This document shows positions 10,518 through 29,165 of a DNA stretch of 29,165 nt, in pieces. The DNA is from a virus: positions 1 through 29,165 of the IMG/VR virus record IMGVR_UViG_3300020404_000845; one strand, 5' to 3'. The position numbers and the translations under genes are program-made. The notes under the pieces were generated by a model. That model ran no database searches. It saw nothing but the letters and a program-made list of their open reading frames with translations, and was not told where the DNA came from. Numbering within the stretch: the stretch's first letter is position 1; the number at the start of each line of letters is the position of its first letter.

Positions 10518-10518
10518 C

Positions 10519-11019
10519 ATGGCAACTGAATTAGAAAAGTTTGATTCTACTGGTGGATTTTCTATTGATAAAACCACAGTAGTAGATGAACTTAGAAACG
10601 CAAAAGATTTAAACACCTTAGAAATTAAAAACTCTGTGTTTACAGACAGTAGTACAACACAATATATTCTTAGAGGTCTTAATACTGCTGTACTAGCATT
10701 GGATGGTGTAGGAACACAAATTCCTATTGCTGCCAACACTCTAAACTTTGTGACTGGTAACATCATCGCTGTCAATCCAACTGGAGTTGTCTACGGAGCT
10801 AAGATTGAATCTGTTGCCTATGCAAATTCTGCAGGAGATGTTTCCATTCTCTCAAGTATGAATACTGTAATTAAAGATGATATTCCTGCAGGACAGACAT
10901 GGGATATTCAACCACTAGGATCATCATTCCGTTTTAGTTACTCTACGACTAGAGCTGGTACAACAAATGTCATCAAATGGGTAGTGTCTACGCAAGTCAT
11001 AAGTATTGAATGGCAGTAA
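10519..11019 (+). CDS. putative virion structural protein (166 aa)
   Basis: A 166-aa protein beginning MATELEKFDSTGGFSIDKTT and rich in Ser, Thr, Asn and Val with predicted beta character. No signal peptide, transmembrane segment or catalytic motif is visible. I do not recognise a named family. Its position between two giant fibre-like genes, with only one base between the upstream stop and its ATG, suggests it belongs to the same structure, for example a fibre connector or baseplate-associated protein. That role is inferred from context only. It is the last gene before the 58-bp gap that carries a late-promoter-like motif. Confidence 0.65.
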   Translation: MATELEKFDSTGGFSIDKTTVVDELRNAKDLNTLEIKNSVFTDSSTTQYILRGLNTAVLALDGVGTQIPIAANTLNFVTGNIIAVNPTGVVYGAKIESVAYANSAGDVSILSSMNTVIKDDIPAGQTWDIQPLGSSFRFSYSTTRAGTTNVIKWVVSTQVISIEWQ

Positions 11020-11033
11020 GTGCAAACTTAATG

Positions 11034-11040
11034 CTAAATA
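11034..11040 (+). promoter_or_regulatory. putative T4-like late promoter (CTAAATA)
   Basis: CTAAATA in the 58-bp gap ahead of the 3233-aa fibre gene resembles the T4 late -10 element TATAAATA and the late motifs proposed for cyanophages. It lies 37 bases before the ATG. A purine-rich AAAAAGGAA (11042-11050) follows it but is too far from the ATG for a standard ribosome binding site. Confidence 0.5.
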
Positions 11041-11060
11041 TAAAAAGGAATAACTAGGCG

Positions 11061-11076
11061 TTACTGCAGCAGGCAC
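11061..11076 (+). repeat. 16-bp direct repeat, leader copy
   Basis: TTACTGCAGCAGGCAC directly precedes the ATG of the giant fibre gene. It is identical to bases 14841-14856 inside that gene and in the same reading phase, where it contributes to ITAAGTD. The upstream phase is closed by TAA at 11051-11053, so the leader copy is not translated from an earlier in-frame start. Confidence 0.8.
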
Positions 11077-11077
11077 C

Positions 11078-20000: not shown

Positions 20001-20779
20001 TCATTATGGATAGTTCGGAATCTAGCTTGCTATTCAAGGTTGGTTCTGCTGCTTCACCTGGTACTTTATCTGTCACCAACAGAATTGGTATTCAAACAGA
20101 TACTCCATCATATCCATTAGATGTTGCAGGTTCTGGTCGTGTCCGTGGCACACTCTATATTGATACTGCTAATGATAACTCAGGTGCTCCAATTGAATTC
20201 TTTGGTGCTGCAAACTACAGAAACTTTAGAATTGGTAACCAGTTAATTGCTAATCACATCTTCTCCATCCAAGCTTCTAATAGCAATGGTAATAGTGACT
20301 GGAACACAACTCCAGCATTACAAATTAAGGGAGATACAAATGCTGTTGCAATTAATACAACACAGCATTCTGGAACTGATCCATCAACAAGCACTGTTAG
20401 AAATTACAAACTTAATGTTCAAGGTGATGTTAACTTCAATGGTCAACTCTTCCAGAACAATGCAGAGTTTGTTACCTCTAGATGGACTGAGGCTTCTAAC
20501 GGATCTGACATTTACAGACTATCTAAAGTTGGTATCAATAAGACAGATCCTCAATACACATTGGATGTTGATGGAGAAGCAAACATTAGAGGTATCACCC
20601 GTGTCAACGGAGACGCACAATACCTAGATACTTACGGTATTGTTAAGAGAAACAGAAATAGTATTTCTCAGAACCTCACAATCGGTGGTGCGGACAACGC
20701 TGCATCATACGGTCCTGTCTCTATTGCGAGCGGATACACAGTCACCATCTCATCTGGCGGTGTCTGGAATATACTATAA
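11078..20779 (+). CDS. giant modular tail-fibre-like virion protein (3233 aa)
   Basis: Largest gene of the window. N-terminal part: MSFNINSDKEFVRGSKPRL, then a GSGY module (about residues 62-138). KIATTEYVLN (from residue 278) is a motif seen before phage fibre domains. From about 295, GRVYVSAQIGDDLNDG and DCSVVGDNLRLVIIRP resemble the start of a pectate-lyase-like beta-helix. Similar helix sequence resumes near 1565-1735 (ASVISFLGGGGALVDGSKV, ALRGIGFREECYSF). The intervening insert holds two related helical units (911-975, 1077-1142) and three beta repeats (about 1190-1455). Further on are TQKAVKDYI (near 1909), more GSGY modules, DADLLDG and DADRLDN units (near 2451 and 2598), AGDSMSGSLNITG, three Y-x-LDV-x-G repeats (near 2919, 3012 and 3160) and a beta C-terminus ending GGVWNIL. 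No S74-type autoprocessing domain is evident. It is probably a host-contacting fibre or a large tail-decorating protein. Confidence 0.85.
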   Translation: MSFNINSDKEFVRGSKPRLIGDQELTIRSGTGSAEKEIIRAQLDANTALPRVGINRTGERVNEINVVTGGSGYTTEPSVTIDPPPTAGGIQALASAFIFNGQVVNIAINNPGSGYTSAPTVTITGGNGGGATAESVLDTVDFELDINGAVRTSTSIISDTARILNLDIDNFITPDTNFRAPNLKTFMNNTGTAWGANVIVQKNAYRYFGANVYQAINSGQTGPEAPTHLDGVALNGEVQFKHIGFRANDTNSFAYNQTGEAGIFPRSITPLLGDRSDKIATTEYVLNLATNDVGGRVYVSAQIGDDLNDGRSAVNPVRTIKRAAQLAWATPGVKETLIVSGGDYVEDNPISLPPDCSVVGDNLRLVIIRPANPKKHIFKFGDKNYVIGVTYRDQVDSIGDAVATWDFAMVFDDKQRIIIDNEVNGDFGVNFPIGHQIFGPDQFRVNFQENTGLSALVTGLEVVGINTGARAKLTGVRFNSTSGVDAYLTGSVDVELKSGSFLEGERFNYIVSGAQGSSVAITITATAGKNIFRTTTDPDTLIPPGTYIYLNDTDNSSFTQGFYEVKAINDDNSPTYWDVEVVPILNSPSWDSTATEAIDIFDANITVNSFDTTSLKSIRAEGEVVSFDDDITTSVPIQRLDFSLQGDPSIATGGFQNAQFGNAEDLGGIVFYTNELVGRSNIHDFKEGQEILIEGLPTSSPDLSVLMGKQRIYKVLEDADGRSRRFVIPKKLPAITTANFDPGTVATAKSFSKSITLSLLNSPNKFPLSSPVERRFQDACVFLRNNREFIADEVVGQINVEFKTDHFRVYDVSGTDFKIYLGTTPSDNNYVSGGTVTFGGTAYNITGFTYDNLVTGEATISTGTAIPGLAEDNIVKLADILISCAAGNKIYPAYSSPTSGNNTGDDGDEQCRQDVIHFVNALVRDLEFGSNHNIIDAAKKYIVNGKIAFIEDEIVQNIRAVEYARRLCVLAMRNWRMEDGTTNDPIYTPRYSSVPRYFDDTVITTTAGTPACADVKAAIDTLAFLWGDVITNNASGTYLDGAYLIARNADLIADQAFQDTLTAFPEIAYSNINERKCPRDTKLILKALVKDLVLGGNSGIVDAAESYYSGSTITGVSVSEIPYVRYAYTRARLYAKYASKNWSATGSTGGTGGNHLWAGGTATNAVQSGGDYAHTFVSGTVTSNVGALPNPITDILYTASTGEMVIYSAGHGLTTSNTINIANNALSFTCSMDGNTSTKTYPRASDPASGQALAITAAGTDTFTVNVGASPIVNHNVTNATYDPSTGDMVLTIGNHSLPVNTSIQIAANSLTFTCDKDGNATQHTYPRVTDPAYNTAINIDAATSTTITVNVGVAPTTSGVVSRSISNATYTPTTGVLSLSMPVSSIPTGFGQNANSRVAFQLGGIIFSCAYSGGGNDESPKIFDQNVGQSFEVLSYNEAVGVATFTMNVGVAGSNTDPHTFVSGDALLITDYVTLSSGIPKFEDWSILVDDGSGSTCSNVDSSINTSFDLLDDILKYSVDPSNGTEPGSTTKTFGTLHDTSDIITYPSSFITDQNNVRMSVRADFDDFPIIEASPYTQNASVISFLGGGGALVDGSKVKQPNCPFPGLELDGTASFPNQGKSMVASAFTIVSFGGTGYKIINDGYTQLVSVFVIFCADGVLAESGGYASITNSATNFGIYALRGIGFREECYSFDKGTISNVSSTPTGRTILTVTGLGREPLEHYVVKIDGFRNTNENIEFFVDSVDGVTVGPPFSAQLTLDNGTGDPLNLTNTTTGSVVSAGTLTGESINLHRPSIVNSSSHTWEFAGSGTNYLALPENGGTKTEAFEQVSEQYGRVYVSGTDELGDFKVGTFARIENRTGAITFTGTVTISEVEFLKLKGGDVVVTGFDASNTLGGANSSNSKLPTQKAVKDYITNNLGPYINKPFSTNAVPRNLVELTDSGKISVDQIPALRPFEVFTVANQTERLALEGALAGDIAIEQDTSTSFILNNDLDSQFLAFGVDTTVQFTIGDIFTGSITGGRLQATEYRQGVVFQINITQGGSGYATPPTVTLTGGTPQAGSIEAKAQAIIANGEVVAIDLIVFNGFKGGKGYTVAPTVNIAAPAGSGVAATATSLIESRLYGDIVNRIKLEDNDFIESSDIPAVDIDITRVVNTSSSNSLNWVSLSSNQIAANQIVSGIIETDRLASGGAANSFTFLRGDQNFALAVQSVKGSERRYFAKLTSTCNSGASEMVFSTLADALVGHEVKNNVSGIQPNTNITGVLTTGGSTTVALNNPVTATIAAGTVIEFERGESPMIFESTFTRGNFVNDVIISNGGTGFTNGQYFDVDVIGGTGTEAKMNLIISGGTITEITVTDGGSGYDADFTMTVPPTEIGGGSGLVLLVKISTVNKQFANVSLDVQRVSDLTISSDLFGTIGVARFKKSQFLVGQSGNGSVELDVGADSGLDADLLDGQQGVYYTNATNLFSGTVPEDRLSGSYPIDVSGSSGNTLRLSSGTNNPTSNPSPDNFAGGIVANTINNTANGLVDGGSKNLVLTLRAGGTSFDASFGGVRQLAFTDNDNMYLRGSGTGVTTFGSWAKIWSSLNDGIGSELDADRLDNRQGIWYQNALNINFGTLSDNRLPNFMSSKIIQDNLTIKAFNGDPKFRIYVSGLILNTTPFTPGSNVNLYDANGQGTGTIAIDNIIVNNDPDNTNDFTIIIGRLTTGNFVGAKTIGSASDRKEFQDFTIEDGNTIQVAKLESDGGTANLRLGRKDSIASSPGVYFNSSISPANYNVGLVATGGNATDGSGTLNCLVANADGFNVNGNVVWNAGNIDFQSSNVADTGVKRDSNGNFAAGTITANLTGSASLNVLKAGDSMSGSLNITGVGSTLTVSGDANFSSKATVTDDFAVDTDTLFVDVSADRVGINAGSSPAYNLDVRGDLGLGIYSSTNAAGAQITFSDLSGGSFAQKGYFQYFHADGTVSGTSFANYFIMDSSESSLLFKVGSAASPGTLSVTNRIGIQTDTPSYPLDVAGSGRVRGTLYIDTANDNSGAPIEFFGAANYRNFRIGNQLIANHIFSIQASNSNGNSDWNTTPALQIKGDTNAVAINTTQHSGTDPSTSTVRNYKLNVQGDVNFNGQLFQNNAEFVTSRWTEASNGSDIYRLSKVGINKTDPQYTLDVDGEANIRGITRVNGDAQYLDTYGIVKRNRNSISQNLTIGGADNAASYGPVSIASGYTVTISSGGVWNIL
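11262..11490 (+). repeat. GSGY modules near N-terminus of giant fibre
   Basis: Encodes GGSGYTTEPSVTIDPPP, then FNGQVVNIAINNPGSGY and TSAPTVTITGGNGGGATA. The GSGYTxxPxVTI pattern recurs at 17188-17445 in this gene and in the two upstream structural genes. Confidence 0.75.
13806..14003 (+). repeat. helical unit, copy 1, in giant fibre
   Basis: Encodes CRQDVIHFVNALVRDLEFGS, IIDAAKKY and AVEYARRLCVLAMRNW, an alpha-helical island in an otherwise beta protein. It aligns with 14306-14508. Confidence 0.65.
14306..14508 (+). repeat. helical unit, copy 2, in giant fibre
   Basis: Encodes CPRDTKLILKALVKDLVLGG, IVDAAESY and YTRARLYAKYASKNW, in the same order and spacing as 13806-14003. The shared core is C-x-x-D-x4-A/V-LV-x-DL-x-x-G, then I-x-DAA-x-x-Y, then a C-terminal helix ending N-W. 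Confidence 0.65.
14650..15440 (+). repeat. three tandem beta repeats in giant fibre
   Basis: Three units begin ITDILYTASTGEMVIYS, VTNATYDPSTGDMVLTIG and ISNATYTPTTGVLSLSM. The first two continue with LSFTCSMDGN or LTFTCDKDGN, then YPRASDP or YPRVTDP, and end FTVNVG or ITVNVG. The third is diverged (IIFSCAYSGGGN...FTMNVG). This YPR-x-(S/T)DP unit is known from cyanophage fibre-like proteins. Confidence 0.75.
14841..14856 (+). repeat. 16-bp direct repeat, internal copy
   Basis: Identical to 11061-11076. Here it codes for TAAGT inside LAITAAGTDTFTVNVG, at the end of the first of the three beta repeats. Confidence 0.8.
17188..17445 (+). repeat. GSGY modules, mid giant fibre
   Basis: Encodes QGGSGYATPPTVTLTGG followed by GGKGYTVAPTVNIAAPAGSG, separated by an AIIANGEVVAIDL strand pair. 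It has the same architecture as 11262-11490. Confidence 0.75.
18010..18255 (+). repeat. GGTGF/GGSGY modules, mid giant fibre
   Basis: Encodes NGGTGFTNGQYFDVDVIGGTG, then GTITEITVTDGGSGYDADF and GGGSGLVLLV. This is the variant with G-x-Y-x-x-V closer to that of the 1415-aa protein upstream than to the TxxPxVTI variant. Confidence 0.65.
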
Positions 20780-20782
20780 ATA
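20775..20782 (+). promoter_or_regulatory. T4-like late promoter TATAAATA
   Basis: A perfect match to the T4 late -10 consensus TATAAATA, overlapping the TAA stop of the giant fibre gene (20777-20779). The ATG of the next gene is 21 bases downstream, leaving room for a short leader with GGAG at 20791-20794. It probably starts a late transcript for the adhesin genes. Confidence 0.75.
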
Positions 20783-20803
20783 ACACTAACGGAGAATTTT
20801 ACC

Positions 20804-21001
20804 ATGGCTTTTATAGATGGAAAATTGACAGTTACTACTGCCAATCCAAGTATTTCGGTAGACCTACCTATTCATGGTATTGGTGACATGCCAAGAGCAG
20901 AGGAAGGAGCTATCTGTTGGGAACCTGAATCTAAAAAAATCTATGTATATGCTCCCAATAATGATGGATACCTCATTTGGCAAGAAACACAGAGGCAGTA
21001 A
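20804..21001 (+). CDS. small fibre-associated protein (65 aa)
   Basis: A 65-aa protein, MAFIDGKLTVTTANPSISVD at its start and EGAICWEPESKKIYVYAPN in its second half. GAICWEPESKKIYVY...YLIWQ resembles the GMMIYN...VWDG.W segment at the start of the two glycine-rich proteins that follow, so it may be a stand-alone copy of that attachment module (inference). The start is supported by GGAG at 20791-20794 with 9 bases spacing and by the late promoter just upstream. No other motif is recognised. Six bases separate it from the next gene. Confidence 0.7.
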   Translation: MAFIDGKLTVTTANPSISVDLPIHGIGDMPRAEEGAICWEPESKKIYVYAPNNDGYLIWQETQRQ

Positions 21002-21007
21002 AAAACT

Positions 21008-21045
21008 ATGTCTACATTAAATGCTGGAACCCTTAACATTACAGG
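21008..21045 (+). repeat. 38-bp direct repeat at the 5' end of paralog 1
   Basis: The first 38 coding bases (MSTLNAGTLNIT plus two bases) are identical to 22059-22096. Similarity continues beyond (LPSY..SQRD, AAAGGGAT etc.) with scattered differences. Confidence 0.9.
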
Positions 21046-22027
21046 AACACTGCAGTTACCATCTTACAATAATTCTCAAAGGGATGCTCTGACACCTACA
21101 ATTGGGATGATGATCTATAACAATGAAGATCCTAGTGTGCAAGTATGGGATGGAGAAGCTTGGCAAGTTTCTGTAGGTACAGGTGGTATTGCAGAACCTG
21201 GTCAAGCATATTATAGTTCACCTGGTTCTTATACCTTTGACGTTCCATCAGGAGTAACACAAATTTCTGCCGTATGCGTTGGCGGTGGCGGAGGTGGAGG
21301 AGGTAACAATGGTACCTCAGGACCTGGTTCATCTGGTGGTGGAGGCGGTGGTCTCGCATATGGAACATTTTCTGTGACATCAGGAGAATCATTGACTGTT
21401 ACTGTTGGTGGAGGTGGTTCTGGTGGTTCACCTAGTTCAACAGGAGCTGCTGCATCTGGTGGAGATTCTAAGATTTCAAGAGGAGGAACCGATTTACTAC
21501 GTGGTGGCGGTGGTAACGGTGGAGTAAGTAATACTAGTTCACAAATTGATGGTGGTACAGGTGGAGGTTCCGCTGGTACTGGAAGATCTGGTGGTGGTGT
21601 AGGTGGACAAGGAGGTCGTTCTCAGTGGAACGGTGCTGGTGCTGGTGGCGGTGGAGCAGGTGGATATTCAGGAAATGGTGGTATTGGTGCAGGTACACAA
21701 GGTGGCGGAGGTAACGGCTCTGGCGGTGGTGGTGCTGGTGGTAGAAATATTAACAGTCAACCTCCTGGCACTGAAGGTTCTGGTGGAGGAACTGGAGTCT
21801 ATGGACAGGGTAGTAGTGGATCATTTGGTAGCTCTGGTAGCGTAACTGGTTCTCCTGACTCTAGTACATCTCCTCCCCAGTCTACCGTTGGTGGTATACC
21901 TGGTGGAGGTGGTGGAGGTGTTGAAGATGATACATTCTCCAATGGATGTACTGGCGGTAGAGGTGCTGTTAGAATTATCTGGGGAGAAGGAAGACAGTAT
22001 CCTACTAGTGGTGTATCCGATGTTTAA
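21008..22027 (+). CDS. glycine-rich tail fibre/adhesin protein, paralog 1
   Basis: A 339-aa protein with two parts. Residues 1-60 (MSTLNAGTLNITGTLQLPSY, then GMMIYNNEDPSVQVWDGEAW) form a short fibre-attachment-like module. From about residue 70 comes a domain starting YTFDVPSGVTQISAVCVGGG, then some 230 residues dominated by Gly and Ser with GGGG runs, ending GRGAVRIIWGEG. Domains of this glycine-rich kind occur in distal fibre proteins and receptor-binding adhesins of many phages, and T-even gp38-type adhesins are likewise built of glycine-rich stretches. A role in receptor contact is therefore plausible but inferred. It is paralogous to the next gene, sharing the first 38 bases exactly. No metal or catalytic motif is visible. 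Confidence 0.8.
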   Translation: MSTLNAGTLNITGTLQLPSYNNSQRDALTPTIGMMIYNNEDPSVQVWDGEAWQVSVGTGGIAEPGQAYYSSPGSYTFDVPSGVTQISAVCVGGGGGGGGNNGTSGPGSSGGGGGGLAYGTFSVTSGESLTVTVGGGGSGGSPSSTGAAASGGDSKISRGGTDLLRGGGGNGGVSNTSSQIDGGTGGGSAGTGRSGGGVGGQGGRSQWNGAGAGGGGAGGYSGNGGIGAGTQGGGGNGSGGGGAGGRNINSQPPGTEGSGGGTGVYGQGSSGSFGSSGSVTGSPDSSTSPPQSTVGGIPGGGGGGVEDDTFSNGCTGGRGAVRIIWGEGRQYPTSGVSDV

Positions 22028-22033
22028 TAAATA
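22026..22033 (+). promoter_or_regulatory. putative late promoter AATAAATA
   Basis: AATAAATA differs from the T4 late element only at the first base and overlaps the TAA stop of the preceding gene, the same arrangement as at 20775-20782. The next ATG is 25 bases downstream; GGAGGA at 22038-22043 lies 15 bases before it, farther than usual for a ribosome binding site. Confidence 0.6.
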
Positions 22034-22058
22034 CAGTGGAGGAAAGTTCTGATCAGTT

Positions 22059-22096
22059 ATGTCTACATTAAATGCTGGAACCCTTAACATTACAGG
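22059..22096 (+). repeat. 38-bp direct repeat at the 5' end of paralog 2
   Basis: Identical to 21008-21045, starting at the ATG. Confidence 0.9.
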
Positions 22097-23111
22097 GACA
22101 TTAAATTTACCATCTTACAGTGATTCTCAAAGGGATTCATTGTCAGCAACTGCTGGCATGATGATTTACAACTCTGAGCAGGGTGGTATTGAAGTATATG
22201 ACGGTACAGAATGGAAAGCTGCTGTTGGTGCTGGTGGCGGATTTATCGTAGCTTCTGGAGGTGCAATCCAGAATGACGGTGACTTCCGTATTCATACTTT
22301 TAACAGTGCATCTTCTTTTGTTGTTACAGAAGTTGGAGACTCTACTCAACCATTTGGTAATACAGTTGACTACCTTATCGTCGCAGGTGGCGGTGGTGGA
22401 GGAGGATTTGCCTCAGGAGATTTTAATAACTTTGGATCTGGCGGTGGCGGTGGTGCTGGTGGCGTCTTAAGAACTGAAGGTTACAATTATGCTGTATCCG
22501 TTGGTTCTATGTCAGTCTCTATTGGTGGTGGAGGAACTGGAGGAACTGGTAACTCTGCTGGATCACCTGGTGGAAATAGTTCACTAGGAACACAAACCGC
22601 TATTGGTGGCGGTGGAGGAGGTCAACAGGATAAACCTGGTCAATCAGGTGGTTCTGGTGGCGGTAATGGTACTGACGGAGCAGGTGAAGGACCTGGCGGA
22701 CCTGGCACATCAGGTCAAGGATTTCCTGGTGGATATGGTGCTAACCAACAGAATGGTACTTCTGGTGGTGGTGGCGGTGCTAGTGAATCAGGACAGAATG
22801 GTTACAATAGACCTAACTCAGGACCTGCAAGAGGTGGTAACGGATTTACATCTGCTATCTCTGGTTCTCCTGTAACATATGGAGGAGGCGGTGGTGGTGC
22901 AAACTATCCTGGCGGTCCTCATAACCCCAATGGTGGATCTGGTGGTGGTGGAGTAGGTGCTCTATCTCCTACTGCTAACGGTAATCCTGGCACAGGTGGT
23001 CTTGGAGGAGGTGGCGGTGGTGCTGCTGACCAAGATCCTCGTAACTATCCAGAACCTAAAGGTGGTAATGGTGGTGGCGGTATTGTAATTGTCAAGTATA
23101 AATTCCAATAA
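22059..23111 (+). CDS. glycine-rich tail fibre/adhesin protein, paralog 2
   Basis: A 350-aa paralog of the preceding protein with the same N-terminal module (MSTLNAGTLNITGTLNLPSY, GMMIYNSEQGGIEVYDGTEW). Then comes a beta region with GGAIQNDGDFRIHTFNS and DYLIVAGGGGGGG, a long Gly/Ser/Asn/Pro region, and the C-terminus GGIVIVKYKFQ. DYLIVAGGGGGG...GGGGAGG followed by a C-terminal IVIVKY is the classic form of the glycine-rich phage fibre domain. The two paralogs agree well up to the attachment module, then differ in the glycine-rich part, as expected if two alternative tips share one base. Whether both are mounted in the virion is unknown. It has its own late-promoter-like motif upstream. Confidence 0.8.
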   Translation: MSTLNAGTLNITGTLNLPSYSDSQRDSLSATAGMMIYNSEQGGIEVYDGTEWKAAVGAGGGFIVASGGAIQNDGDFRIHTFNSASSFVVTEVGDSTQPFGNTVDYLIVAGGGGGGGFASGDFNNFGSGGGGGAGGVLRTEGYNYAVSVGSMSVSIGGGGTGGTGNSAGSPGGNSSLGTQTAIGGGGGGQQDKPGQSGGSGGGNGTDGAGEGPGGPGTSGQGFPGGYGANQQNGTSGGGGGASESGQNGYNRPNSGPARGGNGFTSAISGSPVTYGGGGGGANYPGGPHNPNGGSGGGGVGALSPTANGNPGTGGLGGGGGGAADQDPRNYPEPKGGNGGGGIVIVKYKFQ

Positions 23112-23115
23112 AATC

Positions 23116-23706
23116 ATGGCACATTTCGCAAAAATAGATAGAGTAGGAACTGTCGTAGATGTCATTATAGTTGACGATGACATTCTTAAGAATGAAGATG
23201 GTGAAGAAATAGAACAGAGAGGAGTTAAGTTTCTTTCTGATCTGTTTGGCGGAGCACCTCAATGGGATTGGAAACAAACATCATATAATGCAGTTAAAGG
23301 TCGTCATAGATTTCAACCTGCACCAGCTAGTTACGGTGATGCTGTAGAACCAATCTTTGATAGTAAACCTTGCTTAAGAAAAAATTATGCTGCTGTTGGT
23401 GGTAAATATGATTACGTAAGAGATGCTTTTATTCCACCAAGACATAATGCAACTCATGTTATCTTAGATGAAAAGGCATGCCACTGGGAATGTCCATATC
23501 AATCTAATCAGATTAATGATAATGGAGGTGTGCCACTTCCATATAAAGATGAGTCAGATTACACTGTAAACGCACAAAGAAATCCTAAGGGTTGGGTTTG
23601 GGATGAAGGAAAGAAAACATATAAACAAGTGCTAGCTTTTGAGCAAAAGAATGTACAATATCAGTTTGATCCTCAACAACATATGTGGGTTCAACCAAAT
23701 TATTAA
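23116..23706 (+). CDS. MAHFAK-type conserved phage protein (196 aa)
   Basis: Starts MAHFAKIDRVGTVVDVIIVD at ATG 23116. A TTG at 23089 would add nine residues but lies within the previous gene and breaks the MAHFAK family start. Short proteins beginning MAHFAKL and containing W-K-Q-T-S-Y-N, RKNYA-x-(I/V)G and RDAFIPP are frequent next to fibre genes in T4-like cyanophages and pelagiphages; no function is established to my knowledge. This one keeps WKQTSYNAVKGRHRF, LRKNYAAVGGKYDY and DAFIPPR, followed by several W-containing segments (ACHWECP, GWVWDEGKKTY, HMWVQPNY). The repeated W/Y segments look like short beta hairpins. It opens the operon of oxygenase-type genes. There is no signal peptide or membrane segment. 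Confidence 0.75.
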   Translation: MAHFAKIDRVGTVVDVIIVDDDILKNEDGEEIEQRGVKFLSDLFGGAPQWDWKQTSYNAVKGRHRFQPAPASYGDAVEPIFDSKPCLRKNYAAVGGKYDYVRDAFIPPRHNATHVILDEKACHWECPYQSNQINDNGGVPLPYKDESDYTVNAQRNPKGWVWDEGKKTYKQVLAFEQKNVQYQFDPQQHMWVQPNY

Positions 23707-23714
23707 ACAACAAT

Positions 23715-24278
23715 ATGATTTCATTATGGTTTCCAAAAGCGATTTATTTTCAACCAAATATTTTAAATAATAAATTAGGCATCTATGAGAAACAAATCAA
23801 AGGTGCCTTTTCTAGTATTGGAACTTGTCGCGAAAGATTAAAGAATGTAGACTCTACACATAGGTTAGAGAAAAACATTTTTGATGTAGCAGAACTAGAT
23901 GGTCTGGTAGAAGAATTTTATAAACATGCAAATTTGTATCTAGATGCTCTAGGTTACAAAAGAAGAAAGTCATTACATATTCAAAATTGTTGGGCAAACA
24001 TTAGTTATCCTGGCGATTATCTTTTTCCACATAACCATGGCGGTTCTGTGATAGCAGGAGTTTATTATGTAAAATGTGGTATCCATGAAAAAATAAAATT
24101 TTTCAATACACCCACAATGCTTCCTGATCCAGATGAGTGGAATGATAAAAATCATCAACATTGTGAATACTCTTGTTTACCTGGCTCGCTTTTATTGTTT
24201 ACAAGTGATATAATGCATGGTACAGAGAAACAAGACTGTAAGGAAAAGATTGCTATCTCTTTTAATATGTCATTATGA
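23715..24278 (+). CDS. putative 2OG-Fe(II) oxygenase, TIGR02466-like
   Basis: A 187-aa protein starting MISLWFPKAIYFQPNI. The upstream GTG at 23685 lies inside the previous gene, so ATG 23715 is preferred. The core NCWANISYPGDYLFPHNHGG, then SVIAGVYYVKC, and PGSLLLFTSDIMHGT...KIAISFN matches the small oxygenase family often annotated TIGR02466 in marine phages. Candidate metal ligands are His106/His108 and His168. The usual HxD acidic ligand is not evident (HNH), and Lys178 stands where an Arg normally binds 2-oxoglutarate. It may therefore be a diverged or inactive double-stranded beta-helix enzyme, or use another ligand set. The substrate is unknown. The stop overlaps the next ATG (ATGA). 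Confidence 0.75.
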   Translation: MISLWFPKAIYFQPNILNNKLGIYEKQIKGAFSSIGTCRERLKNVDSTHRLEKNIFDVAELDGLVEEFYKHANLYLDALGYKRRKSLHIQNCWANISYPGDYLFPHNHGGSVIAGVYYVKCGIHEKIKFFNTPTMLPDPDEWNDKNHQHCEYSCLPGSLLLFTSDIMHGTEKQDCKEKIAISFNMSL

Positions 24279-24892
24279 TTGAGTTCAATGTTCCACAACA
24301 ATCACCAAATTTTATTGCTGGATGGTATATAAGTGAGGATGTCTGTGATGGTTTAATTTCTTTCTTTGAGGAATCAGATGATAAAAAACCTGGCGCTATT
24401 GGTCAAGGTGTAAATGAAGATTTTAAAATATCAACTGATGTTACTGTCATTCCTAGAAATCCTGATAACAGAATTCAGGATTATCTTAGAGAGTTAACTG
24501 ATGTGTGTAAAGAATATACTCTCAAATATCCATGGTGCTCTACTAACCAAGATGTATGGGGATTGAATACTAATTTTAATATTCAAAAATATAATCCTAG
24601 TGAGGGTTTTTTTGGATGGCATACAGAGAAATCTACTATGTCTGATCTAGTTGGAACTAGGCATCTTGTGTTTATGACATACCTAAACACAGTAACCAAT
24701 GGTGGAGAAACTGAGTGGTTTCACCAACAGATAAAAATACAACCAAGGAAAGGATTGACAGTCATGTGGCCAGTGGATTGGACTCATGTTCATCGTGGTG
24801 TGCCTTCCAAGACCGAGACTAAATATATTACGACGGGATGGTATACTTATAAGATACCTAACTTTGATTACACTCAATATAATGGAGCCTGA
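24275..24892 (+). CDS. putative 2OG-Fe(II) oxygenase, prolyl-4-hydroxylase-like
   Basis: A 205-aa protein of the double-stranded beta-helix dioxygenase type. The core starts FNIQKYNPSEGFFGWHTEKS, giving an HxE pair (His116, Glu118). It continues RHLVFMTYLNTVTNGGETEW, the strand and GGET turn typical of prolyl-4-hydroxylase-like proteins, then TVMWPVDWTHVHRGVPS with the distal His171 or His173. Lys183 (KYITTGW) is in the place of the 2OG-binding Lys of prolyl hydroxylases. HxE in place of HxD is a conservative variation. Substrate is unknown; peptidyl-proline or other protein side chains are possible from family relation. It starts in an ATGA overlap with the preceding stop and its own stop overlaps the next start (TGATG). 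Confidence 0.8.
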   Translation: MIEFNVPQQSPNFIAGWYISEDVCDGLISFFEESDDKKPGAIGQGVNEDFKISTDVTVIPRNPDNRIQDYLRELTDVCKEYTLKYPWCSTNQDVWGLNTNFNIQKYNPSEGFFGWHTEKSTMSDLVGTRHLVFMTYLNTVTNGGETEWFHQQIKIQPRKGLTVMWPVDWTHVHRGVPSKTETKYITTGWYTYKIPNFDYTQYNGA

Positions 24893-25503
24893 TGAATCTT
24901 TATAATAATTATTGGTGGTTTAAAAATGCATTTTCTCCAGAACAATGCGACCGTATTATTAAAATGGGTATGCAGGAGAATTTTGAATTAGGTGATATTA
25001 ATAGAACTAATAGAGAAACAGTAGAAGTAGAGGATACAAAAGATTTATTTAAAACAAGGAACTCTCACGTCTCATGGTTAGACGAACCTTGGATTTATAA
25101 TATTCTAAAAAAATATATTGATGCTGCTAATTCATCTGCAGGATGGAATTATGATTGGGACTGGACAGAGATGTTGCAGTTTACAAAATATAAAGTCGGT
25201 CAGTTTTATGATTGGCATCCAGATCAACATCACTATGTTTATCCAGAAGATGATACTAATGTAAACATGAGAGGAAAGTATAGAAAACTTTCTACAACAC
25301 TACTATTAAATGATGCAAGTGAGTTCAAAGGAGGTGAGCTTGAATTTCATTACAACATGAAAGAAACCAAGATTGCTGAGGAGTTATCTTCTAGAGGAAC
25401 CTTAATTGTATTTCCTGCATTTGTATATCACAGAGTTCGTGAAGTTACAGAGGGAACTAGATATTCTCTTGTTAGTTGGAGTATTGGAGCACCATTCAGA
25501 TGA
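24892..25503 (+). CDS. putative 2OG-Fe(II) oxygenase, PKHD-type-like
   Basis: A 203-aa protein with a complete motif set: YKVGQFYDWHPDQH (His109, Asp111), RKLSTTLLLND, FKGGELEF, TLIVFPAFVYHRVREVTEG (His180) and TRYSLVSWSIG (Arg190). The order HxD...GGEL...FP...H-x-V...R-x-S matches PKHD-type hydroxylases related to prolyl 4-hydroxylases, at about the usual length of 200-230 residues. Of the array members it looks most like an active enzyme. The substrate cannot be predicted. It starts one base into the previous stop, with GGAG at 24884-24887 only four bases before the ATG, and ends in an ATGA overlap. Confidence 0.88.
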   Translation: MNLYNNYWWFKNAFSPEQCDRIIKMGMQENFELGDINRTNRETVEVEDTKDLFKTRNSHVSWLDEPWIYNILKKYIDAANSSAGWNYDWDWTEMLQFTKYKVGQFYDWHPDQHHYVYPEDDTNVNMRGKYRKLSTTLLLNDASEFKGGELEFHYNMKETKIAEELSSRGTLIVFPAFVYHRVREVTEGTRYSLVSWSIGAPFR

Positions 25504-26021
25504 TCCATATTTCACACATTAATCTCAGTGATGATTTTGTAGATAGGATAATTGATTTTTTCAAAGACAATATCCTAAAAACATATACATGGGATGAGAC
25601 TAGAGTTCTCAGTATGGATAAAGGTGGGATTGGTAAATACAATCTACCAGAGACATACTATGATATCCTTAATCTTGCAAAGGATGTAAAGAGTAAGGTA
25701 ACTAACAAAGAGTTTTCTGTTCTACAGAATGTTGAAATTGTAAAGTATCCATGCGGTGCTTGTAAAGTATTTCATAAAGATAGAACAAGGAAAACCACAA
25801 CAGGAGCTTCAATAACTTATCTGAATGACAACTACATTGGTGGTCATACTGTTATTGAAGGAGTAGATGTTCAACCTCTTTCTGGAAGAACAGTTTACTT
25901 TGATGGAATGGAATTTCGTCACGGTGTATCAAATGTAATCAAGAGAGATAGATATACTCTCTCTATGTGGTATGGACTTGATACCACAATGCCACTAAAC
26001 AAAGACTTCTTAGAAATTTAA
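25500..26021 (+). CDS. putative 2OG-Fe(II) oxygenase (173 aa)
   Basis: Starts MIHISHINLSDDFVDRIIDF at ATG 25500, in an ATGA overlap with the previous stop and with GGAG at 25486-25489. A TTG at 25476 would extend it by eight residues into the previous gene and is not favoured. The core has KVFHKDRTRK (His92, Asp94), GASITYLNDNYIGGHTVIEG, SGRTVYFDGMEFRHGVSNV (His141) and RDRYTLSMWYG (Arg151). This is the full HxD...H...R set of a minimal double-stranded beta-helix dioxygenase, a little shorter than its neighbours. The FDGMEFRHGVSNV segment corresponds to the F-P-x-x-x-x-H-G-V stretch of prolyl-hydroxylase-like phage proteins. Substrate unknown. One base separates it from the next gene. Confidence 0.82.
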   Translation: MIHISHINLSDDFVDRIIDFFKDNILKTYTWDETRVLSMDKGGIGKYNLPETYYDILNLAKDVKSKVTNKEFSVLQNVEIVKYPCGACKVFHKDRTRKTTTGASITYLNDNYIGGHTVIEGVDVQPLSGRTVYFDGMEFRHGVSNVIKRDRYTLSMWYGLDTTMPLNKDFLEI

Positions 26022-26022
26022 A

Positions 26023-26505
26023 ATGGAAATTATTGACAATTACTTAGCACCTGATTTGTTTAAAGTTGTTCAAGAAACAATTCTATTATCTCAGAACACA
26101 CCATGGTTTTTAAATACTGATGTATCTGGTCATGGAGTAGAAAAACATCCATATTTTACTCACCTTATGCATCATGATCACAGAGCAAACAGTAACCACT
26201 TTGATCAATGTATTGTTCCTATTCTATTCATGTTTGGAGCAAAAGCATTAATGCGTGTAAAAGTAAATTTATATCCTAGAACAGATACTCTATATCATTA
26301 CCATGATCATTATGATTATGATTTTGAACATAAAGCTGCTATTCTCTATCTCAATACAAATGATGGATATACAATCTTTGAGGATGGAACAAAGGTTGAG
26401 AGTATTGAAAATCGTCTGTTAAAATTTGATGCTAGAAAAATGCATCATAGTACGACATGCACAGATCAACAGTATAGAGCTAACATCAATTTTAATTACT
26501 TCTAA
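26023..26505 (+). CDS. putative 2OG-Fe(II) oxygenase, small His-rich type (160 aa)
   Basis: A 160-aa protein with VNLYPRTDTLYHYHDHYDYD (His92, His94, Asp95, His96, Asp98), AILYLNTNDGYTIFEDGTKV, RLLKFDARKMHHSTTCTD (His141/His142) and YRANINFNY (Arg152). The NLYPRT...H..H.D...LYLNTNDGYT.FEDGT...H.S..CTD...R.NIN pattern is one I associate with short oxygenase-like proteins of marine T4-like phages. A plausible iron triad is HxD (His96/Asp98) plus His141 or His142; the crowded His region makes the exact ligands uncertain. The enzyme is near the lower size limit for this fold. Substrate unknown. Its TAA stop overlaps the next ATG by one base. Confidence 0.78.
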   Translation: MEIIDNYLAPDLFKVVQETILLSQNTPWFLNTDVSGHGVEKHPYFTHLMHHDHRANSNHFDQCIVPILFMFGAKALMRVKVNLYPRTDTLYHYHDHYDYDFEHKAAILYLNTNDGYTIFEDGTKVESIENRLLKFDARKMHHSTTCTDQQYRANINFNYF

Positions 26506-26867
26506 TGGCAAGTCAACTATTGAATGTTAGGAACAGTTATAAGTTTCCTGAATACATTGATGTAAAAAACATACCTGATACCAGAAGTATGGAGTATGGT
26601 ATCAGAAAAGTATTACATGAAGAGTTTGGTATTGAAGGAGAGATTGACTGTATAGAAAAAATATCTGATCAAAAGGTATCATCAAATGGAACATTTACAT
26701 CTGTTGTTTGTTTAGATACTGGAGATCTACATCTGTATGCTCTAGATGTTGAAAACAAAGAGGTTGGTTTTGAATTAATTCCAAAGGTAATGTATTTTTC
26801 AGATGCTATTGTATACCGATGGAAAAATATAAAGGAGATTGATAATGTCGGGTTTGACTTTTACTAA
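26505..26867 (+). CDS. unrecognised protein within the oxygenase operon (120 aa)
   Basis: A 120-aa protein starting MASQLLNVRNSYKFPEYIDV. It lacks any HxD/H/R arrangement, signal peptide or membrane segment. Visible sections are a charged helix (MEYGIRKVLHEEFGI), a central beta stretch (TFTSVVCLDTGDLHLYALDV) and a hydrophobic/aromatic C-terminus (IPKVMYFSDAIVYRW). I do not recognise a family. It starts by a one-base overlap with the upstream oxygenase stop, and its end overlaps the next gene by 23 bases, so it is co-translated with the oxygenases. It could be an accessory or substrate-recruiting subunit, but that rests on position alone. Confidence 0.7.
   Translation: MASQLLNVRNSYKFPEYIDVKNIPDTRSMEYGIRKVLHEEFGIEGEIDCIEKISDQKVSSNGTFTSVVCLDTGDLHLYALDVENKEVGFELIPKVMYFSDAIVYRWKNIKEIDNVGFDFY
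26831..26837 (+). promoter_or_regulatory. ribosome binding site deciding the start at 26845
   Basis: AAAGGAG lies seven bases before ATG 26845, inside the end of the upstream gene. It favours this ATG over the TTG at 26839. Confidence 0.75.
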
Positions 26868-27450
26868 GATATCTGATTTACCAGTCGCACATATTCAAAA
26901 TTTTTACTCATCAGATGAGTTAAAAAAGATAATGAATGAATTAGAATATCTGTATAGCATTGACAGATATAAAGGTGCAGAAGAGGATGGAGGACCAGGC
27001 ACTGCATATGAAGATGGTGTAGCACTTAAGGTAGGAAAAGGTCTCCATCTAAATGTTGTGTATGATGACGTAAAGCAATCTGATATACTAAGTATCAATA
27101 GAAAAATATTCAATGAAAGTTTGATGGAATCTCTAATGGGTAATCATCCATTCTTTCGTTATCTGTGGAGATCAAATAGAGATGAAACTAAAATTCATTA
27201 CTTTGAGAATGGAGATCACTACAGACCACATACAGATGATTGTGTAATCACTGCTATTACTTGGTTCTATAAGGAACCAAAGATGTTTACTGGTGGTGAT
27301 TTTATCATTGAAAAAGCGATCAAAATTCCATGTCTAAATAATTCTACGGTAATATTTCCTTCAATTTTATACCATGAGGTGACATCTGTCGTAATGGAAA
27401 ATCTTTCTGGATTTGGAAGATATTCTATGAGTCAATTTTTGTATATGTAA
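26845..27450 (+). CDS. putative 2OG-Fe(II) oxygenase, prolyl-hydroxylase-like (201 aa)
   Basis: Starts MSGLTFTKISDLPVAHIQNF at ATG 26845, chosen for its AAAGGAG site. The core carries KIHYFENGDHYRPHTDD (His129, Asp131), then ITWFYKEPKMFTGGDFIIE (a TGG-D turn equivalent to GGEL/GGET in related enzymes), TVIFPSILYHEVTSV (His177) and GRYSMSQFLY (Arg192). This is the complete HxD...H...R set with the family's spacing, close to PKHD/prolyl-hydroxylase-like enzymes of about 200 residues. It is likely active. The substrate is unknown. The N-terminus contains a helix beginning SSDELKKIMNELEYLY, as in other members. Two bases separate it from the next gene. Confidence 0.86.
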   Translation: MSGLTFTKISDLPVAHIQNFYSSDELKKIMNELEYLYSIDRYKGAEEDGGPGTAYEDGVALKVGKGLHLNVVYDDVKQSDILSINRKIFNESLMESLMGNHPFFRYLWRSNRDETKIHYFENGDHYRPHTDDCVITAITWFYKEPKMFTGGDFIIEKAIKIPCLNNSTVIFPSILYHEVTSVVMENLSGFGRYSMSQFLYM

Positions 27451-27452
27451 TT

Positions 27453-28100
27453 ATGAGTCAAGTAATTTTATTTGAAAACGACGAACCGAAAACTATTTTT
27501 GCTCCAACATACAGATGGCATATGTATGAAGGAGAGGTGCAGGTAAGAGATATTAGAGATACTATTCTCAAAAGAGAGAATGAGATTATTAATACTCATG
27601 ATTATGAGAGTGATTGGAATACAGGTCTAGGTAAAGATAGTATGACATCTAGATCAAGTAGCTATAATTTATTGGATTGGGAAGAGGCAGATCATATTAG
27701 AGATATTATTAGAAACTCTCATGATAATCTTGTTACCACACTAGATGCTAACATGTGGGAGGACAAGATATATGTTCAGTGTTGGGCAAACGTATTGAGG
27801 AAGGGACAAAAAATTAAACCACATCAACATTGGAATAGTCAGTACACATATCTTGGTGGACATATTTGTTTAGATGATTATAATACTCATACTCACTATG
27901 TAAATCCATACACTAAAAAAACATTTAAAAGTAAAAACGAAAAAGGAAAGGTGCATCTGTTTCCGAACTGGTTAGAGCATTACACTGATCCATATGAGGG
28001 TGATGATGTCCGTGTTACAATTGCATTTGATATCATTACACAAATTGTATACGACGAAGATATTTTTGATAATAAGAAGGATCATTGGGTACAGTTGTGA
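27453..28100 (+). CDS. putative 2OG-Fe(II) oxygenase-like protein, WAN/HxH type (215 aa)
   Basis: A 215-aa protein whose second half reads YVQCWANVLRKGQKIKPHQH (His124, His126), then YTYLGGHICLDD, KVHLFPNWLEHYTDPYEG (His176) and VRVTIAFDI (Arg187). The LFPNWLEH...R-x-T-I-A-F-D end is the signature of TIGR02466-like small oxygenases, and the CWAN...H-x-H stretch links it to the gene at 23715 and to the partial gene at 28791. As in 23715, HxH occupies the place of the expected HxD, so its metal ligation and activity are uncertain. The N-terminal half is helical and charged. The last four bases form a GTGA overlap with the Fe-S gene. Confidence 0.75.
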   Translation: MSQVILFENDEPKTIFAPTYRWHMYEGEVQVRDIRDTILKRENEIINTHDYESDWNTGLGKDSMTSRSSSYNLLDWEEADHIRDIIRNSHDNLVTTLDANMWEDKIYVQCWANVLRKGQKIKPHQHWNSQYTYLGGHICLDDYNTHTHYVNPYTKKTFKSKNEKGKVHLFPNWLEHYTDPYEGDDVRVTIAFDIITQIVYDEDIFDNKKDHWVQL

Positions 28101-28798
28101 ACACCAATCAAATTGTTGAAGCTATCAACTGGGTAACTAGGGATACTCCAATTATGTTTGATGTTACTGTTACTACACCACCTGATGATTTGATACGTCA
28201 AAGAGCACAAGACAATTACAATAGAGGAAAACCAGATTCATTAGATAAAGATTTTTATTTGTCTGATACTTGTAAATCTATTATTGTTTGGAATGTTTTT
28301 AGTGACGTTGCCTATGATTATTATTACAAAAATAATTTTCTACCTAAAATTATTACATACTTAAATATGAGATATGAATATAATTTTGGTTATGATGGTT
28401 ACAATCTCAATCGTAAACAGTTTGCTATTAGATCTGGTGCTGCAACACTAGCAAAAACATCTTTAGCATTTCATAAAAAATTTGGGATGAATTATAAAAT
28501 TGATCTCATCTTTACAAATGCAGAGTTTGAAGATGCTGTTGTTGTAGAAGGACAACCACATTATGAGAACTGTGAAGGATGTGACGCTCCATGTGAGAGA
28601 TTGTGTCCTGTTGGTTGTACAATGAATTTTGATTTAGTTAACTGGGAAAAATGTTCAAACTTTGTGGACACTCCAGAAGCTTTTAAAAATTTAGATACCA
28701 TATGTAGAATCTGTCAGGAAAAATGTCCTTACTCAGAAGATCTGAGAAAAGATATTCTAGCTATGAATATAAATTATGGAGGTAGGATAAATGGGTGA
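28097..28798 (+). CDS. QueG-like iron-sulfur (8-Cys) protein
   Basis: A 233-aa protein from GTG 28097 in a GTGA overlap with the upstream stop; the TTG at 28085 lies deeper inside that gene. The C-terminal third has eight cysteines in the arrangement of a two-[4Fe-4S] domain: C159-x2-C162-x3-C166-x3-C170-P, a lone C186, and C203-x2-C206-x3-C210-P, with an extra C174. Upstream, YDGYNLNRKQFAIRSGAATL and AKTSLAFHKKFG match the layout of epoxyqueuosine reductase QueG (D...R-x-x-x-x-R-A-G-x-G-x-x-G-K-N-x-L). QueG is a cobalamin-dependent enzyme of the last step of queuosine synthesis, related to reductive dehalogenases. This protein is shorter than QueG (about 310-390 residues) and lacks its C-terminal repeats. 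The first motif has three residues between its second and third Cys, where ferredoxins have two. Reductase, electron carrier or other role cannot be decided. It overlaps the next gene by eight bases. Confidence 0.7.
   Translation: MNTNQIVEAINWVTRDTPIMFDVTVTTPPDDLIRQRAQDNYNRGKPDSLDKDFYLSDTCKSIIVWNVFSDVAYDYYYKNNFLPKIITYLNMRYEYNFGYDGYNLNRKQFAIRSGAATLAKTSLAFHKKFGMNYKIDLIFTNAEFEDAVVVEGQPHYENCEGCDAPCERLCPVGCTMNFDLVNWEKCSNFVDTPEAFKNLDTICRICQEKCPYSEDLRKDILAMNINYGGRING
28778..28782 (+). promoter_or_regulatory. ribosome binding site for the gene at 28791
   Basis: GGAGG lies eight bases before ATG 28791, within the 3' end of the Fe-S gene. It is one of the strongest Shine-Dalgarno sequences in the window and supports a real gene start despite the eight-base overlap. 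Confidence 0.8.
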
Positions 28799-29165
28799 AT
28801 GGCGTTCATGGAAATCTAATTTACCAAACAATCCGTTTGCTCCAAAATTTTCTGTTGACATGTGGTTTGATCTTATTAATCTACAGTTGATTGATAATTT
28901 ATTAGACGTAGTTAAACAGAATGAGGACTTATATAAAAACCATCAATGGGAACACTACAATATTTTCCAATGGGAAGATAGATGTATCCGTGATCTCAAA
29001 GAGATTACCAAAGCTTCTTACCACGATTTTTGTAAAAAAATTGGATTTAAAACAGAAGAAGTTTGGATAAGAGGTTGGGTATACCCACAGAAACAAGGAA
29101 TGGTATTGAAAAGACATTCACATGCTATGCATGAAAATGCGTATATTAGTGGTAATATTTGTCTT
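28791..29165 (+). CDS. putative 2OG-Fe(II) oxygenase-like protein, WAN/HxH type, 3'-partial
   Basis: Open from ATG 28791 to the right edge, 125 residues, beginning MGEWRSWKSNLPNNPFAPKF. Near the edge it reads VWIRGWVYPQKQGMVLKRHS (His109) followed by HAMHENAYISGNICL. This matches the YVQCWANVLRKGQKIKPHQH...YTYLGGHICLDD stretch of the protein at 27453 position by position, so it is very probably another member of the same HxH-type oxygenase-like group. The distal His and the Arg would lie beyond the window. The N-terminal half is helical (LINLQLIDNLLDVVKQNEDL) and charged. The start is supported by GGAGG at 28778-28782. Confidence 0.7.
   Translation, partial: MGEWRSWKSNLPNNPFAPKFSVDMWFDLINLQLIDNLLDVVKQNEDLYKNHQWEHYNIFQWEDRCIRDLKEITKASYHDFCKKIGFKTEEVWIRGWVYPQKQGMVLKRHSHAMHENAYISGNICL

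Follow-up and report, generated by a model that had tools for sequence, protein, structure and literature searches.

Why would a cyanophage carry eight oxygenase genes in one row directly behind its tail fibre and adhesin genes, and on what would their products act? The question is raised by a viral sequence of 29,165 bases (IMG/VR record IMGVR_UViG_3300020404_000845, positions 1 to 29,165; this whole stretch is called the window), the right-hand end of which is occupied by ten genes designated here B to K. The window is assigned to a T4-like cyanophage (Kyanoviridae) because, among named phages, Synechococcus phage S-RSM4 is the closest to it, with 84% of bases 11000-29165 covered and an identity of 75.9%. 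Genes B-K form one fixed unit, to which two partner genes, G and J, belong as strictly as the oxygenases do. This cassette is real, conserved and under-described, and the genes around it suggest fibres and adhesins as its candidate substrate. What is new is the fixed cassette, its partner J and the statistical link of oxygenase clusters to tail fibres; oxygenase multiplicity in cyanophages is already published. The ten genes, with E-values in brackets unless stated otherwise, are as follows:

B, 23715..24278, plus strand: predicted 2OG-Fe(II) (2-oxoglutarate and iron(II)-dependent) oxygenase, PF13759 type, HxH...H (PF13759, 6.9e-12)
C, 24275..24892, plus strand: predicted 2OG-Fe(II) oxygenase, H116/E118/H173/K183 (PF13640, 5.2e-12)
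D, 24892..25503, plus strand: predicted 2OG-Fe(II) oxygenase, H109/D111/H180/R190, nearest to PiuC-type hydroxylases (PF13640, 1.4e-14; PDB PiuC, 1.1e-4)
E, 25500..26021, plus strand: predicted 2OG-Fe(II) oxygenase, H92/D94/H141/R151, labelled "DNA endonuclease" in PHROGs (phrog_2297, 1.1e-48)
F, 26023..26505, plus strand: predicted 2OG-Fe(II) oxygenase, H96/D98/H141/R152, publicly labelled "DNA endonuclease V" (phrog_274, 1.4e-42)
G, 26505..26867, plus strand: cassette-specific protein of 120 amino acids, fold resembling an iron-free double-stranded beta-helix (model confidence 87.4, see below)
H, 26845..27450, plus strand: predicted 2OG-Fe(II) oxygenase, H129/D131/H177/R192 (PF13640, 5e-07)
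I, 27453..28100, plus strand: predicted 2OG-Fe(II) oxygenase, PF13759 type, HxH...H, R187 (PF13759, 3.5e-12)
J, 28097..28798, plus strand: protein of 233 amino acids bearing cysteine motifs for two 4Fe-4S clusters, distantly related to QueG and to reductive dehalogenases (profile match to QueG 5d6s, 2.5e-5)
K, 28791..29165, plus strand: predicted 2OG-Fe(II) oxygenase, PF13759 type, cut by the contig end (full relatives in contig L009 and others)

An earlier annotation made from the letters of the window (hereafter the sequence-only reading) had proposed eight oxygenase-type genes lying back to back. All eight frames are present, and B, C, D, E, F, H, I and the partial K are classified as 2OG-Fe(II) oxygenase-type because Pfam, PHROGs and profile-profile evidence converge on this assignment. 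B, C, D, H and I all exceed the Pfam cut-offs, C, D and H with PF13640, B and I with PF13759 (46.1 and 47.0 bits for a cut-off of 27). The partial K by itself matches no family, and its full-length relative in L009 reaches 28.9 bits with PF13759. E and F, which have no Pfam match above cut-off, were assigned by PHROGs and by profile comparison, F having no match among PDB profiles. The pairwise hhalign probabilities connect the families into a network: B-I 81%, I-K 99.5%, D-K 83%, C-D 96%, D-H 97%, C-E 78% and E-F 83.5%. The narrower models stayed below cut-off: TIGR02466 (62.5 bits), one of those proposed in the sequence-only reading as a check, is not reached by B (58.3 bits) or I (33.8 bits). 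D gives E=1.5e-15 with NF003974 and has the C-terminal core in common with PiuC/PKHD-type hydroxylases (PDB 9ghl, E=1.1e-4), its best score being 57.3 bits for PiuC/YbiX PKHD equivalog cut-offs of 143-399 bits.

The five ligand sets named in the sequence-only reading, those of C, D, E, F and H, are borne out by their orthologues: 23-38 non-redundant sequences were compared per family, and the HxD/E...H triads reach a conservation of 95% or more. So does the basic residue predicted to bind 2-oxoglutarate, located 10-15 positions past the last His (C K183, D R190, E R151, F R152, H R192), F R152 being conserved at 90% or more without being invariant in a smaller alignment (A4). B, I and K depart from this triad and all three display HxH...H (B H106/H108/H168; I H124/H126/H176; K H109/H111/H160); in each, the last His is followed 10-11 residues later by a Lys or Arg. 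HxH is considered a trait of the PF13759 branch because PDB 2rg4 shows it as well, where aligned with B. The chemistry of B, I and K is nevertheless less certain than that predicted for the HxD/E...H genes.

The paralogues are strongly diverged, with identities of at most 30% and a median of 24% (36 pairs among nine oxygenases, counting the downstream gene L described below), as the sequence-only reading had put forward in arguing against a recent amplification. Such divergence would fit different substrates as well as successive steps, the two options of that reading, between which sequence by itself does not distinguish. The overlaps it had noticed can be read directly: ATGA at B/C and D/E, TGATG at C/D. 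They continue along the row with TAATG (F/G), GTGA (I/J), 23 nucleotides (G/H) and 8 nucleotides (J/K), leaving gaps of 1 nucleotide at E/F and 2 nucleotides at H/I. The ratio of non-synonymous to synonymous substitutions (dN/dS) of B-J compared with S-RSM4 is 0.066-0.192; as dS is near saturation, this is read as no more than a sign of purifying selection.

The same row of genes is found in many viral records. Two IMG/VR scans and two phages were compiled, a locus being counted when it held at least five cassette genes. This yielded 58 loci, which, with the window counted, correspond to 52 distinct records, as S-RSM4 and five contigs each appear two times; some contigs are near-identical, and 52 records do not stand for 52 independent lineages. 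The synteny comparison called for by the sequence-only reading gave a single answer: the order B-C-D-E-F-G-H-I-J-K is unchanged in all 58 loci. The complete B-K row is present in 19 distinct records, and the others are cut by contig ends, except for L044, in which E is split over two frames, and S-SM1, which has no B. The set is not a collection of identical copies, as the identity of D to the window protein drops to 51%. The proposal of a dedicated system rather than scattered auxiliary genes fits such a unit kept in 52 distinct records. The array proper is not made of oxygenases only: G and J, unnoticed by the sequence-only reading, lie inside the run, at 26505 and 28097-28798. To note, an alternative arrangement of C-D-L-H-F relatives, with neither G nor J, occurs in four loci (L082, L083, L085 and L092).

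Two sequenced phages carry the cassette. In S-RSM4, SRSM4_132-142 are the same B-L genes in the same order, located behind a tail fibre gene and before the neck gene g13, with protein identities to the window of 49-86% for B-J. In S-SM1, SSM1_051-061 comprise C-K followed by two L genes, behind fibre and Gly-rich genes, where SSM1_043 encodes the fibre, SSM1_049 a Gly-rich protein and SSM1_050 A; besides lacking B, this phage differs in having the row at another genome location, not beside g13. In the available portions of the descriptions of these two phages, the cassette is uncommented and the array has no assigned function. The array genes of S-RSM4 were partly deposited as 2OG oxygenase, DNA endonuclease V or ferrochelatase.

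J is the most conserved enzyme of the cassette (86% identity to S-RSM4). Its two motifs, CxxCxxxCxxxCP and CxxCxxxCP, contribute the invariant cysteines C159, C162, C166, C170, C203 and C206, as well as C210, conserved at 90% or more, the exception being a truncated row. Its profile retrieves QueG (5d6s) from the PDB, the runner-up standing at E=0.21. Nine of 18 members match the QueG family TIGR00276 (best E 3.4e-4) and three of 18 the reductive dehalogenases, all far below cut-offs: for a TIGR00276 cut-off of 200 bits, the window protein scores 14.7 bits with a longer start, and its 233-residue form has no QueG match. D100 is invariant and aligns in the profile alignment with an Asp of QueG that may be the catalytic one. 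The AlphaFold2 model of J is poor (predicted local distance difference test, pLDDT, 41.5) and was not used for fold searches. J occurs in 23 viral loci and in four phage records, the latter all of S-RSM4 or S-SM1, and was found in no phage outside those carrying the cassette; no relative was found in cellular genomes, scanned with two peptide patterns only, which makes this weak evidence.

G has no family match and no conserved His. Its AlphaFold2 model is good (pLDDT 87.4, predicted template modelling score 0.80). In the VIA structure comparison, 45 of 50 rows are 2OG/Fe oxygenases with Z of 4.5-6.8, many being repeats of PHD2, and the top two are rows of Chlamydia CT296 with Z 7.5, all in the range below 8 in which the tool warns of what may be a common arrangement. 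Foldseek returned no match at E<=0.001 in the PDB and three in BFVD, two of them named as proteins of S-SM1 and S-RSM4. The model makes it possible that G is an iron-free double-stranded beta-helix. A relationship to the oxygenases by sequence was rejected: hhalign of G to B-L gives a probability of at most 1.6%, and when G was compared with five families its real score was equalled by 7-40 of 40 column-shuffled versions. A small protein behind an F-like gene of S-PM2 (GC742) was likewise discarded as a homologue, as it belongs to phrog_4883, and G has no match outside the cassette loci. In S-RSM4, SRSM4_137 (91856-92092) is annotated with 78 codons, and the frame at 91859-92218 matches the full-length G of the window.

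Downstream of K, relatives with longer contigs hold the gene L, and one group has an extra F-like and an extra L-like gene. L has a conserved HxD...H and a weak match to PF13532 (2OG-FeII_Oxy_2, AlkB-type, E=0.03). Its hhalign probability to the other cassette families is at most 8.2%, and its best PDB profile match is no better than 0.11. Together these features give moderate support to L being an oxygenase. Its public name, ferrochelatase, finds no support in family searches, PF13532 being the sole match at E<=0.1. The same holds for "DNA endonuclease V" in the case of F, for which there is no Pfam match at E<=1, and for "DNA endonuclease" in the case of E, for which Pfam gives just Oxygenase-NA and YqbF, below cut-off. 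These public names of the E, F and L families, including denV, apparently spread via PHROGs and RefSeq; examples of misnamed genes are SRSM4_132, 138 and 139 in S-RSM4 and SSM1_054, 060 and 061 in S-SM1.

The sequence-only reading named no target for the system. The surroundings of the array indicate tail fibres and adhesins, in keeping with the check proposed in that reading, a search for hydroxylated residues in virions. From left to right, the window comprises large virion genes, then the following five genes, then the array:

TF, 11078..20779, plus strand: long tail fibre protein of 3233 amino acids, candidate substrate (phrog_5342 tail fiber protein, 4788 bits; SRSM4_146 in S-RSM4)
T65, 20804..21001, plus strand: protein of 65 amino acids encoded between TF and M, retained wherever a cassette locus extends this far
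M, 21008..22027, plus strand: glycine-rich adhesin-like protein (PF21722, 3.9e-11)
GR, 22059..23111, plus strand: glycine-rich adhesin-like protein, candidate substrate (PF21722, 2.1e-15; phrog_2295, 2.6e-71)
A, 23116..23706, plus strand: phrog_7759 protein beside the adhesin (phrog_7759, 3.9e-36)

In GR, Pro, Asn, His, Tyr and Lys residues are conserved amid the glycine runs: across 24 sequences, 11 of 18 Pro and 13 of 26 Asn are kept at 90% or more. These are candidate hydroxylation sites, bearing in mind that conservation has other causes too. The right-hand flank is of the same kind in relatives. Another Gly-rich adhesin-like gene comes after L in L009 and L045, and in S-RSM4 L is followed by SRSM4_131, which has the same adhesin head by phrog_1325, and then by g13. 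M, the second F and the second L vary among the cassette loci while the B-K order stays; M is found in part of the loci and absent elsewhere, as if adhesin genes were swapped. T65 has no match in Pfam or PHROGs profile searches. A single late-promoter motif, TATAAATA, lies at 20775, 29 bases ahead of the T65 start; as 2.69 are expected by chance, it is no evidence of a promoter.

The association of oxygenase clusters with tail genes extends beyond the cassette. A context scan covered 17 phage records (16 of the Kyanoviridae type and the 61-kb Pelagibacter phage HTVC023P) with the oxygenase families phrog_61, 81, 274 and 2954, leaving out phrog_2297, so that all counts are approximate and refer to the matches listed. 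The tail markers were A and PF21722, both taken from the window itself, with phrog_1325 and phrog_4924, and a helicase family served for uvsW; the expectation was obtained by rotating each record at random, and three or more oxygenase genes made a cluster. About 216 merged oxygenase loci were counted, 4-23 per record. The largest clusters, of nine genes, are those of S-RSM4 and S-SM1 and correspond to the present cassette; such an array was thus already in the databases. Clusters were encountered in 16 of the 17 records, the others being smaller.

Among 83 clustered oxygenase genes, 39 have a tail marker within 2 kb, compared with 7.1±5.3 expected (p<=0.0003), and 53 have one within 5 kb, compared with 12.1±7.1. 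When S-RSM4 and S-SM1 are removed, the 2-kb excess persists (28/62 vs 4.8, p<=0.0007). Unclustered genes behave as expected from chance, with 9/126 vs 7.1 at 2 kb and 11/126 vs 12.9 at 5 kb. With A and the Gly-rich markers alone, 46 of 167 genes are within 6 kb (12.6 expected), and 30 of 139 (10.6 expected) without the two cassette phages. A is present in seven of the 17 records, and in all seven it adjoins a PF21722 gene and an oxygenase cluster. As for uvsW, none of 84 clustered genes lies within 2 or 5 kb of it; unclustered genes show a slight excess at 2 kb (8/128 vs 3.2, p<=0.027), which disappears at 5 kb (10/128 vs 7.0). The annotation was read by eye at 16 of the 19 clusters, those of HTVC008M, S-MS29 and ACG-2014i being judged by marker matches alone, and 12 of these 16 have a fibre, adhesin or baseplate gene within two genes or ~2 kb. 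The S-SM2 cluster is flanked on both sides by tail-fibre genes, and a "tail assembly chaperone" lies among or next to the genes of the S-PM2 and Syn1 clusters and of the second cluster of S-RSM4.

What would such a cassette do? It stands at about an even chance that B-K serves as a maturation line for the fibres or adhesins of the phage itself, which it would hydroxylate. B-K would be co-translated as one unit, the fibre and Gly-rich adhesin proteins being made from genes just upstream. The oxygenases would draw on host 2-oxoglutarate, oxygen and iron and hydroxylate chosen residues, each enzyme having its own site or residue context and acting before or during fibre assembly. J may supply electrons, or remove oxygen or halogen; dehalogenation is attractive in view of the halogenases of the syn9 sister cluster, and no more than that. 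G, if it is indeed an iron-free beta-helix, might bind the substrate or scaffold the enzymes. Part of this proposal is directly observed: the genes, their ligands, their fixed order, the signs of purifying selection, the short distances between clusters and fibre genes, and the flanks of the cassette, with tail fibre and Gly-rich genes upstream and, in relatives, another Gly-rich gene and g13 downstream. The enzymatic activity, the substrate, the order of steps and the roles of G and J are, for their part, inferred. In a host-adaptation experiment with phage S-TIM4, most mutations fell in genes of the fibre and baseplate; ORF23 was also mutated, a 2OG gene the product of which is absent from the particle (PMC6224464). 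This would fit enzymes that act on a fibre and do not themselves belong to it. The authors linked ORF23 to nutrient limitation instead (PMC6224464).

Several observations weigh against fibre hydroxylation. No modified residue has been seen so far. Nearness is not function, and the late genes of T4-like phages are grouped anyway. The majority of the oxygenase loci, 129 of 216, stand outside clusters, and these show no link to fibres. Three of the 16 clusters read by eye do not adjoin fibre genes (the second clusters of S-SSM7 and ACG-2014h, and S-H9-1), and that of syn9 lies 4.7 kb behind the fibre genes, after two tryptophan halogenases. The statistics have weak points of their own: the marker phrog_4924 was picked after inspecting S-PM2 and Syn1, the excess becomes marginal when phrog_1325 is added to A and the Gly-rich markers and S-RSM4 and S-SM1 are omitted (30/181 vs 17.6, p<=0.042), and the 17 records are related, so that p-values overstate.

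Among the alternatives, the one that survives best is that the enzymes serve to make or decorate a small molecule or a sugar, either a secondary metabolite or a glycan of the capsule, host surface or fibre, the nearness to fibre genes reflecting a shared late class of host-interaction genes. Diverged enzymes accompanied by an Fe-S partner do resemble a biosynthetic cluster, and other clusters hold tryptophan halogenases (syn9) or Nol-like carbamoyltransferases (S-SSM5, P-RSM4). In the jumbo cyanophage S-SSM6a, a cluster of halogenase, 2OG and carbamoyltransferase genes is read in print as serving capsule decoration or a secondary metabolite (PMC7824862). Family searches, however, revealed no glycosyltransferase, peptide synthetase, carrier protein or transporter among the cassette genes of the window, and the fibre neighbourhood recurs across unrelated layouts, which makes this explanation unlikely, if worth keeping in mind.

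It is more doubtful still that the genes were acquired independently in a late-gene hot spot, with a common tail neighbourhood and a common fold and no joint task. Cyanophages do gather oxygenases in general, as the loci counted above illustrate, and the make-up of clusters varies between phage groups, an example being the C-D-L-H-F arrangement. Against this stands the constancy of the cassette order in all the distinct records, though neighbouring genes come and go. An action on host metabolism, by drawdown of 2-oxoglutarate or signalling through it (nitrogen control) or by supplying succinate for respiration, has been proposed in print for cyanophage 2OG genes (PMC3037559, and again PMC9602691); it appears very improbable for the cassette, as one enzyme would suffice for 2OG turnover, compared with eight diverged ones in fixed order beside fibre genes. 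Least probable is the repair or modification of nucleic acid, proposed in print on the grounds that some phage 2OG genes are by uvsX, uvsY or uvsW (PMC9146016) and matched by the weak AlkB-type hit of L, given that none of the clustered genes lies within 5 kb of uvsW and that the "DNA endonuclease V"-type labels of PHROGs are unsupported by sequence.

Viral 2OG oxygenases thought to act on structural proteins have been described, namely the prolyl hydroxylase of PBCV-1 and the lysyl hydroxylase L230 of mimivirus. Compared with the cassette, these are single enzymes of giant viruses of eukaryotes, not known to form a multi-gene row. Closer in host, phage S-SCSM1 has many diverged 2OG genes: 23 loci were counted here (approximate), dispersed along its genome and including, by the rule used here, a single cluster of four genes, and 24 are reported in print (PMC9602691). 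Neither J nor G was found in its scanned stretch, 205-224 kb. In S-SSM6a, several hydroxylases are likewise clustered with further tailoring enzymes, the gene make-up being different from the published description (PMC7824862). That cyanophages carry numerous 2OG genes is reported in PMC3037559, and their function is said to have "not been specifically investigated" (PMC9602691), the printed proposals being nitrogen control (PMC3037559) and DNA repair (PMC3037559, PMC9146016). In a literature search that covered subscription journals thinly, and papers in part, no suggestion came up that phage oxygenases hydroxylate tail fibres.

The 2OG oxygenases are among the most numerous cyanophage accessory genes and are mostly interpreted as serving metabolism or DNA repair. 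Should the clustered ones finish fibres, a large class of "auxiliary metabolic genes" would become virion-maturation genes. Host range would then have a chemical layer invisible in sequence alone, and fibres produced in laboratory hosts would miss that modification. The virion proteome of S-SM1 has been measured (PMC3037559), and these data could be re-searched for fibre hydroxylation. A wider and more tentative reading, which we hold to be possible rather than probable, is that of an assembly-line chemistry on receptor-binding fibres in marine phages: one operon with polyglycine adhesins, the targets of modification, would combine eight to eleven site-specific hydroxylases, an Fe-S enzyme of the QueG/dehalogenase type and an iron-free beta-helix protein, the halogenases and carbamoyltransferases of sister clusters providing further steps. 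Phages would then have a new layer of host-range and adhesion control.

A few loci outside the cassette are of note. In syn9 (L113, 24000-46000), the two tryptophan halogenase genes, at locus positions 8966-12071, lie between the fibre genes and a cluster of eight oxygenase genes, and may belong to the same chemistry as that cluster. In S-SSM5 (L115, 8514-10178) and P-RSM4 (L122, 24652-26316), the gene of the Nol-like carbamoyltransferase is on the opposite strand, between adhesin-like genes and the oxygenase cluster. Finally, HTVC023P (MN698239, 36241-47988) displays a row that starts with four Gly-rich genes and A, continues with oxygenases resembling D and L and closes with one more Gly-rich gene; the Gly-rich/A/oxygenase neighbourhood is therefore not confined to T4-like cyanophages.

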